Positions 1-12,924 of a stretch of DNA of 13,076 nt are shown piece after piece. Each line of letters opens with the position of its first letter. Positions within the stretch are counted from its first letter, which is position 1. The position numbers and the translations under genes are program-made. The stretch is from an uncultured Porphyromonadaceae bacterium (GTDB taxonomy: Bacteria; Bacteroidota; Bacteroidia; Bacteroidales; Muribaculaceae): NCBI GenBank assembly GCA_947176355.1, contig CAMWQY010000040.1, positions 1-13,076 of the forward strand, in the 5' to 3' direction. The notes beneath the pieces were generated by a model. It did not search any database, was not told where the DNA came from, and saw only the letters and a program-made list of their open reading frames with translations.

Positions 1-53
1 AGATTTTAAGGTTAACAGAAGATTGGTTGTCGTGATGACAATCAATTTTTTTT
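1..53 (+). ncRNA. Repeat small-RNA element, copy 1 (3' part; 5' end outside window)
   Basis: The 3' part of a repeated element whose fuller copies lie at 12802-12904 (minus) and 11911-12019 (plus). Seen: AGATTTTAAGGTTAA at 1-15, then an 11-bp stem pairing 21-31 with 37-47 around loop GTGAT (32-36), then a T-run at 46-53. Two of the 11 pairs are G-U wobbles that work only if the plus strand is the RNA. The 16-bp core TTGTCGTGATGACAAT (27-42) is identical to copy 2. The promoter and 5' segment must lie to the left of the window. The T-run meets the stop codon of the convergent aminotransferase gene, so it may also serve as a terminator there. It could instead be only the terminator of an unseen upstream gene. 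The small-RNA reading rests on homology to the other copies. Confidence 0.6.
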
Positions 54-11910: not shown

Positions 11911-11941
11911 TTTGTAGTTTCAAAAAAATTCATTAATTTTG
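11911..11941 (+). promoter_or_regulatory. Bacteroidetes promoter for small RNA copy 3 / recO leader
   Basis: TTTG at 11911-11914, a 19-bp spacer and TAATTTTG at 11934-11941 match the consensus exactly. The next bases, CAAGT then GTGTTTTTCAT (11947-11957), recur after the -7 box of copy 2, so the promoter and the start of the RNA are conserved together. Confidence 0.78.
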
Positions 11942-11946
11942 CAAGT

Positions 11947-12019
11947 GTGTTTTTCATAGTATTAAATTAAGATTAAGGTTTCGGTCTAATTCTTTGTGAA
12001 AAGGGTTAGATCTTTTTTT
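11947..12019 (+). ncRNA. Repeat small-RNA element, copy 3, upstream of recO (sRNA or attenuating leader)
   Basis: About 73 nt from the likely start to the end of a T-run. The 5' part, GTGTTTTTCATAGTATTA at 11947-11964, differs from copy 2 at one position in 18. AGATTAAGGTT follows at 11970-11980. The 3' part is a 13-bp hairpin: 11983-11995 pairs with 12000-12012 around loop GTGA, with three G-U pairs, and T7 follows at 12013-12019. It lies between its promoter and recO, whose ATG is 44 bp beyond the T-run. It may be a free small RNA, a leader that attenuates recO, or both. No open frame is shared with the other copies. Confidence 0.62.
11983..12019 (+). terminator. Intrinsic terminator at the end of small RNA copy 3
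   Basis: GGTCTAATTCTTT (11983-11995) pairs with AAAGGGTTAGATC (12000-12012) along its whole length, with G-U pairs at 11984, 11990 and 11991. The GTGA tetraloop belongs to the stable GNRA class. Seven T follow directly. It stands upstream of recO, not after a gene. Confidence 0.8.
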
Positions 12020-12062
12020 ATAAGCAAAAAGAGGGGACGACGTATATTTTAATTTTAAGAAT

Positions 12063-12803
12063 ATGAAGGAGAATATAACGGGTATTGTGTTAGGCACAGT
12101 AAAACATAGCGACAAGCATAATGTCACGAATATATACACTCGAGAGAGAGGTAGAATTGCCTTTCTGACTCCTGCCGGATCATCAAAGTCGAGCCGCCAG
12201 ACGATGGCTCGCTTGCAGCCATTTAGCATAATAGAAGCCCAAGCTAAAATCTCAACTACAAGAGACATACACAATCTCTATTCCATAGCCCCAATGAAAG
12301 TGTGGCGTTCGATCTATTATGAACCACTTAAATCAACCATAGTACTATTTTTGTCAGAATTCTTGACAAGGCTACTCCATGATGCACCTCAAGAACCACG
12401 TCTTTGGGATTTTATAGCCAACTCAATCAGCGTCTTGGATGCTACCATTGACCGTAGCTTAACCGCGAATTTCCACATCACATTTCTTATCAGCATGAGC
12501 TATATGATGGGCATACAGCCTGATCTAAGCGGTTATCAAGAAGGAATGGAATTTGACATGAAAGCCGGCATAATGGTATATCCATTTAACGTCGTATCGC
12601 CAAGCAGCCTAAGGATTGATGCCGGACATTCCGCATTCCTTCCCACACTTGCTCGCATCAACTATGCCAATGCCCGATATTTCCGATTCTCAGGTAAAGA
12701 TCGTTCCGAACTTATCGACTCCATCCTAAAATACTACGGACTCCACTTCCCCGGATGCGACAACCTAAAATCTCTCGACATCCTAAAAGAAATTTTTGCA
12801 TAA
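12063..12803 (+). CDS. recO: DNA repair protein RecO
   Basis: RecO works with RecR (and RecF) to load RecA onto SSB-coated single-stranded DNA in gap repair. The 246-residue product has the N-terminal OB-fold start (ENITGIVLGTVKHSDKHNVTNIYTRERG), a helical middle with YYEPLKSTIVLFLSEFLTRLL, and the C-terminal GMEFDMKAGIM region. The zinc-binding Cys pairs of many RecO proteins are absent, as is common in Bacteroidetes. The ATG has no clear Shine-Dalgarno sequence. The only good promoter upstream (11911-11941) is separated from the gene by an intrinsic terminator, so expression may depend on read-through. A weaker -7-like TATATTTT (12043-12050) close to the start is an alternative. The gene ends on the T-run of the convergent small-RNA element at 12802-12869. 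Confidence 0.88.
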   Translation: MKENITGIVLGTVKHSDKHNVTNIYTRERGRIAFLTPAGSSKSSRQTMARLQPFSIIEAQAKISTTRDIHNLYSIAPMKVWRSIYYEPLKSTIVLFLSEFLTRLLHDAPQEPRLWDFIANSISVLDATIDRSLTANFHITFLISMSYMMGIQPDLSGYQEGMEFDMKAGIMVYPFNVVSPSSLRIDAGHSAFLPTLARINYANARYFRFSGKDRSELIDSILKYYGLHFPGCDNLKSLDILKEIFA

Positions 12804-12837
12804 AAAAAAGGAATAATTGTCATCACGACAACTATCC
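12802..12837 (-). terminator. Terminator hairpin at recO/queA convergence
   Basis: The 3' hairpin of small RNA copy 2, followed by T8 on the minus strand. On the plus strand the same palindrome has two A-C mismatches and only TTT after it, so it could slow but would poorly terminate recO transcription. Confidence 0.75.
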
Positions 12838-12869
12838 TTTAACCTTAAATCTAATACCATGAAAAACAC
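12802..12869 (-). ncRNA. Repeat small-RNA element, copy 2 (free-standing sRNA candidate)
   Basis: About 68 nt on the minus strand with its own promoter. In RNA order: GTGTTTTTCATGGTATTA from 12869, AGATTTAAGGTTAA (12852-12839), then an 11-bp stem GGATAGTTGTC / GACAATTATTC around loop GTGAT (plus-strand 12837-12827 and 12821-12811), then eight T (12809-12802). Two G-U pairs fit the minus strand only. The T-run overlaps the recO stop codon. No gene lies downstream in its direction except antisense recO, so it is probably not a leader. A 25-codon frame through it (12860-12783) is not kept in the other copies. Confidence 0.65.
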
Positions 12870-12873
12870 GATG

Positions 12874-12904
12874 CAAAGATAATACATCTAAAAGCTTTTG
12901 TCAA
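12874..12904 (-). promoter_or_regulatory. Bacteroidetes promoter for small RNA copy 2
   Basis: On the minus strand: TTG at 12904-12902, a 20-bp spacer, and TATCTTTG at 12881-12874. The -7 box is an exact match; the -33 box is CTTG rather than TTTG. The conserved GTGTTTTTCAT of the RNA begins 4 nt after the box, nearly as in copy 3. Confidence 0.7.
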
Positions 12905-12924
12905 GTATTTCGATTAAAAATTTT

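Follow-up and report, generated by a model that had tools for sequence, protein, structure and literature searches.

FopS small-RNA genes and a type B variant in a Muribaculaceae genome

Organization of the locus

The window (the whole analysed stretch of 13,076 nt, which is contig C40 in full, from an uncultured Muribaculaceae bacterium, GenBank assembly GCA_947176355.1) carries three copies of a short repeat, the two complete ones lying on either side of an open reading frame. The features are as follows.

1..53 (+): copy 1, the 3' part of a FopS gene, with the end of the seed, a hairpin (17-51) and T8 (46-53); recognized by RF04319 and fold z-score
11911..11941 (+): promoter of copy 2, with TTTG at 11911-11914, a 19-nt spacer and TAATTTTG at 11934-11941; read from the sequence
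11947..12019 (+): copy 2, type B, 73 nt, with seed 11947-11982, hairpin 11983-12012 and T7 12013-12019
12063..12803 (+): ORF between copies 2 and 3, presumably recO, judged from its sequence; used for genome placement and synteny
12802..12869 (-): copy 3, canonical FopS, 68 nt, with seed 12869-12839, hairpin about 12840-12807 and T8 12809-12802
12874..12904 (-): promoter of copy 3, with TTG at 12904-12902, a 20-nt spacer and TATCTTTG at 12881-12874; read from the sequence

All three copies lie where the initial annotation had placed them (1-53 +, 11911-12019 + and 12802-12904 -), and copies 2 and 3 display the order of elements that it described, namely a -33 TTG/TTTG, a 19-20 bp spacer, TAnnTTTG, the 5' end, the hairpin and T7-8. 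The proposed promoter-to-terminator unit of 68-73 nt corresponds to 73 nt in copy 2 and 68 nt in copy 3. Copy 1, which had been credited with the last three parts only, retains the end of the seed, the hairpin and T8, its 5' part being lost at the contig edge; its first base, also that of the contig, falls within the AGATTTTAAGGTT block. Copy 3 is convergent with recO, and its T8 reaches into the recO stop codon, sharing its final bases; the end of copy 1 coincides with the stop codon of another convergent gene. RecO relatives occur in all 59 Muribaculaceae genomes, and comparison with five loci that carry one at 71-96% identity placed the window in a Muribaculaceae metagenome-assembled genome.

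Assignment to the FopS family

The three repeats are genes of a known small-RNA family, FopS (Rfam RF04319, BTncRNA_FopS), as had been guessed when a prior Rfam entry was suspected. A search of the 13-kb window with this model (Rfam 15) matches all three copies (E-values 3.9e-8, 8.8e-5, and 0.0037). Copy 3 (12869-12802, -) scores 66.1 bits and exceeds the gathering score of 56 bits; copy 1 (1-53, +; model positions 18-71, 5' truncated) and copy 2 (11947-12019, +) score 48.7 and 40.3 bits, below that cut-off. Copy 3 is a canonical FopS gene and copy 2 belongs to a FopS variant, named type B in this analysis, the two complete copies being of different subtypes. The further guess of a Bacteroides catalogue holds for the family, which was described from Bacteroides thetaiotaomicron, but not for the present organism, a member of the Muribaculaceae. 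The family is known; the new members, the Muribaculaceae host and the type B variant are what is new here.

In B. thetaiotaomicron, the published report (PMC11697453) describes 14 FopS paralogues with northern bands of ~65 and 70 nt, repression of SusC mRNAs at the start codon, raised FopS levels in the presence of bile salts, and an RRM protein, RbpB, that binds and antagonises FopS; pairing at the susC mRNA start blocks translation in vitro, as demonstrated for FopS-10. FopS acts after transcription on glycan importers in Bacteroides, a setting that includes RbpB. Like those RNAs (PMC11697453), the copies of the window combine a 5' seed predicted to be complementary to SusC mRNA start regions, a terminator hairpin, a length of 65-73 nt, a canonical promoter and several dispersed copies; unlike them, they have a Muribaculaceae host in which no RRM_1 protein was found and include a type B copy below the cut-off.

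The whole explanation, to which we assign a probability of roughly 0.85, is that these are FopS genes with their own promoters, producing RNAs of 68-73 nt that target start codons, with RbpB antagonism probably absent and with a type B variant. A Bacteroidota-type promoter of its own would drive each complete copy, and the resulting RNA of 68-73 nt would consist of a 5' seed that is nearly invariant and for the most part unpaired, with an intrinsic terminator behind it. This seed, predicted to be complementary to the start-codon regions of mRNAs that begin ATGAAAAA, including those of SusC-type importers, would pair with these targets and block their translation, by extension from FopS-10 of B. 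thetaiotaomicron.

Predicted targets

Duplex energies were computed at 24 SusC starts from two genomes, hand-kept from the TIGR04056 matches (11 of 34 in the own genome, 13 of 38 in genome G049) as full-length genes or genes truncated by a contig edge that keep their N-terminus, with starts assigned by a simple rule (that of L171 looks doubtful); control genes were the longest ORFs with the first ATG in one genome. The A seed reached a mean of -12.86 kcal/mol at the SusC starts, against -9.41 (sd 1.00) for shuffled seeds keeping CAU, one of 200 of which was as low. Energies were higher (-10.61) for 223 genes that lack a signal-peptide-like start (p = 0.0033 against SusC), and at 80 ordinary genes the same seed reached -11.09, slightly better than shuffles (-10.18, sd 0.73). 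The type B seed gave -11.19 at the SusC starts, with 7 of 200 shuffles as low, separated SusC from genes lacking a signal-peptide-like start (p = 1.9e-5) and was no better than shuffles on ordinary genes.

These energies support targeting of the start region, and both SusC alone and secreted proteins generally would fit them. The seed might thus act on secreted-protein mRNAs at large, through their ATGAAAAA starts, and not on SusC specifically: for the A seed, 77 other signal-peptide-like genes (-11.51) did not differ significantly from SusC (p = 0.072) and were themselves lower than the 223 remaining genes (p = 0.016). We regard this broader targeting as a real possibility that leans to the doubtful side, since the type B seed does separate SusC from the signal-peptide-like genes (p = 0.025; 24 SusC starts, two genomes) and three SusC genes (L080, L162, and L173) have, among the strongest predicted duplexes, long matches to the leader ahead of the start.

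Near-exact complements of the seed (up to three mismatches in 20 nt) occurred at 20 places in four genomes, 17 of them FopS-type by inspection, the other three being L116, L121, and L122. As a candidate target L121 was discarded, as no ORF of at least 40 aa starts there.

Subtypes and the type B variant

The FopS genes fall into the following forms.

Subtype A: GTGTTTTTCATGGTATTAGATTTAAGGTTAA; copy 3
GAG variant: GAG at the 5' end and GATTTTAAGG; end of contig C113 and same-genus genomes
NAG variant: begins NAG, with GGTAA; genomes G046, G049, and G054
Subtype B: GTGTTTTTCATAGTATTARATTAAGATWAAGGTTT; copy 2

Copy 1 has GATTTTAAGG and, by this comparison, resembles the GAG/GATTTTAAGG subtype of same-genus genomes. 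In G049, one locus (L108:1501-1576; 57.7 bits) carries the canonical A seed on an unrelated, longer terminator stem, the seed having been kept on a replaced hairpin.

Type B, searched as a 35-nt sequence with up to three mismatches, so that diverged copies in the other 19 genomes would escape, is present in 40 of the 59 Muribaculaceae genomes and 20 of their 26 genera (once in 36 genomes, twice in 4); 36 of the 44 matches have no mismatch at all, and the reversed control pattern had no match in the 59 genomes. In the four nearest relatives whose contigs reach far enough (L041-L044), recO is flanked by type B immediately upstream and by FopS immediately downstream; at other loci type B has very varied neighbours. 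Across 22 type B genes, taken from 26 fetched B1-type loci with the B2-type loci (the kind of the window copy) set aside, the first 36 columns include 35 that never vary and one that reaches at least 90%. In the same 22 genes 97.9% of the cells of the terminator stem are paired and 9 of the 11 pairs show compensatory changes; 0 of 500 shuffles came as high. As the genes were found by their seed pattern, the independent evidence lies in the contrast with the variable stem, not in seed identity alone. A 5' part that hardly changes while the stem does points to a conserved target set. The type B seed differs from that of type A downstream of the first 18 nt, so its predicted target set is probably partly different.

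Copy 2 shares its first 18 nt, including CAUAG, with the consensus of another small RNA, GibS (RF04182), as well as UAAGAUUAA further on, and might on this basis be a shortened GibS counterpart instead of a FopS gene. GibS of B. thetaiotaomicron, as characterized in its report (PMC7366714), is about 145 nt long, with a second seed (R2), a PM2 promoter and induction by GlcNAc; the copies of the window are like it in the first part of the 5' seed (R1). Unlike GibS, both complete copies have canonical promoters, and membership was rejected on score (33.5 bits for copy 2 and 35.1 for copy 3, lower than their FopS scores and far from the RF04182 cut-off of 115 bits) and on length (73 and 68 nt vs. 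~145). CATAG was likewise dropped as a GibS mark, given that a phage gene with this motif reaches 78.9 bits under the FopS model. Of the type B loci, seven distinct ones were scanned; two of them (L109 and L160) pass the FopS cut-off and five do not. A GibS origin of copy 2 is therefore unlikely, and type B is treated below as a FopS variant.

Promoter, fold and limits of conservation

A canonical sigma-ABfr promoter (TTTG/TTG plus TAnnTTTG) precedes copies 2 and 3, copy 1 being without its 5' part. Among 78 family copies, 72 have the -7 box, TANNTTTG, at a distance of 3-6 nt upstream from the 5' end, compared with 0.7% in shuffled upstream sequence, and 55 of the 72 box-bearing copies have a TTG 15-23 nt further upstream. 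These 78 copies, 72 of them with a distinct RNA sequence, comprise the type B set and the seed-like matches, among which those with more than two substitutions, no T-run or less than 40 nt upstream were dropped.

Conservation ends where the RNA does. Two relatives match copy 2 at 98.6% identity (144/146), its flanks falling to 52.5 and 29.3%; copy 3 is 97.9% identical (323/330) in five relatives, with 88.9% over its promoter region (12870-12905) and 66.4% beyond the promoter. The folds of copies 2 and 3 consist of a single-stranded 5' seed (R1') and then an intrinsic terminator. In minimum-energy folds only 63% of the first 31 nt are unpaired in the type B set, which weighs against a free seed there, and 93% in type A; the minimum-energy fold of copy 2 has weak pairing in the seed, but its centroid has none. 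Fold z-scores against dinucleotide shuffles are -3.40 (copy 2), -2.45 (copy 3), and -4.34 (copy 1). The most conserved part of the FopS copies is the 5' half, not the hairpin.

That the copies are merely gene terminators, or a dispersed repeat devoid of small-RNA function, would agree with their dispersal and with their position at gene ends (copy 3 at the recO stop, copy 1 at that of the convergent gene), but conservation centres on the 5' half and the promoter lies at a fixed distance from the 5' end, for which reasons this highly improbable reading is rejected; in addition, compensatory substitutions alter the hairpin and leave the 5' part constant, and FopS members are expressed and active in B. 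thetaiotaomicron (PMC11697453). The preference of the initial annotation for a dispersed small-RNA family over ordinary gene terminators is supported by the RF04319 match, the conserved 5' half and the fixed-distance promoter. A lack of copies elsewhere had been named as evidence against such a family; with FopS in all 59 Muribaculaceae genomes and in 55 of the 198 from the Bacteroidales, the reading stands.

Distribution of FopS

All 59 Muribaculaceae genomes searched (26 genera) contain RF04319 matches over the cut-off, with between 1 and 14 matches per genome at E ≤ 0.01; the 30 best-scoring loci were fetched, so their seed identity is partly chosen. Of the 55 positive genomes in the Bacteroidales sample, 37 are over the cut-off, and in a phylum-wide sample 3 of 296 genomes are, all three of the order of the window organism; the filters used in these large searches lose weak matches. 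A lone sub-threshold match (G348:C1:2970447-2970515; 43.9 bits) was seen in the same class, in another order. Conservation of FopS has been reported within the Bacteroidaceae (PMC11697453), and the Muribaculaceae host of the window lies outside that family. Among the matches listed by a full-text literature search, no publication on FopS in Muribaculaceae was found.

Tandem runs of three or four FopS genes also occur, with a spacing of about 210 to 465 bp (G046:C8:775588-776083; G028:C25:18733-19708; G249:C21:15920-16857; G177:C1:3141137-3141708).

On mobile elements, exact seed patterns of types A and B gave 0 matches in viral contigs, and blastn against phages gave weak matches in four records, one of which holds a full FopS gene. 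This gene, in the induced Bacteroides phage BX-TP2 (L212:974-1043; 78.9 bits), is unannotated and adjoins a DNA methyltransferase; a phage copy of FopS has already been reported (PMC11697453). In a plasmid collection 20 records gave matches, their hosts being Bacteroides, Phocaeicola, Parabacteroides, and Prevotella.

Occurrence of RRM proteins

A search with the RRM_1 profile found no match over the cut-off in any of the 59 Muribaculaceae genomes, four of which have weak sub-threshold matches (one profile was used, and a very divergent RRM could escape it), and none in the own genome (74% complete); Bacteroides ihuae, the positive control, matches. No RRM_1 protein having been found in Muribaculaceae, RbpB antagonism is probably absent there or exerted by another protein. 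RRM_1 matches are present in 140 of the 198 Bacteroidales genomes. Among the 37 with strong FopS matches, RRM_1 was found in 22; the remaining 15 come from eight families, in seven of which no sampled FopS-positive genome (1 to 3 per family) has RRM_1. Co-occurrence of FopS and RRM in this order sample was not significant (p = 0.11).

We give about even odds to the wider proposal that in Muribaculaceae and six other sampled Bacteroidales families FopS acts without an RRM protein, and that the nearly invariant 36-nt seed of type B governs a second, distinct set of mRNAs. If so, FopS regulation would be wider than RbpB control. The presence of FopS in every sampled Muribaculaceae genome, with no RRM protein found there, represents a natural test between action of the RNA alone, action with another partner and a lost off-switch.

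FopS genes at contig ends

At E < 1e-3, four FopS matches were found in the own genome (402 contigs, 74% complete), namely copies 1 to 3 and a further one where contig C113 ends; two of the four are cut by contig ends, and the family is multicopy and dispersed. Five further RF04319 matches, with E between 2.4 and 9.9, look like chance. The C113 match shares 16 identical bases with the beginning of C40 and may represent the 5' part that copy 1 lacks; a synteny comparison of copy 1 and the C113 end with 12 FopS/recO loci of relatives gave no tblastn matches.

Contig ends fall at or inside FopS genes at the start of C40 and at the end of C113, and in three related MAGs (L040-L042) the contig begins within the type B copy that precedes recO or 2-4 nt ahead of it. 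Metagenome assemblies probably break at FopS genes because co-assembled species share nearly identical copies of these small RNAs.
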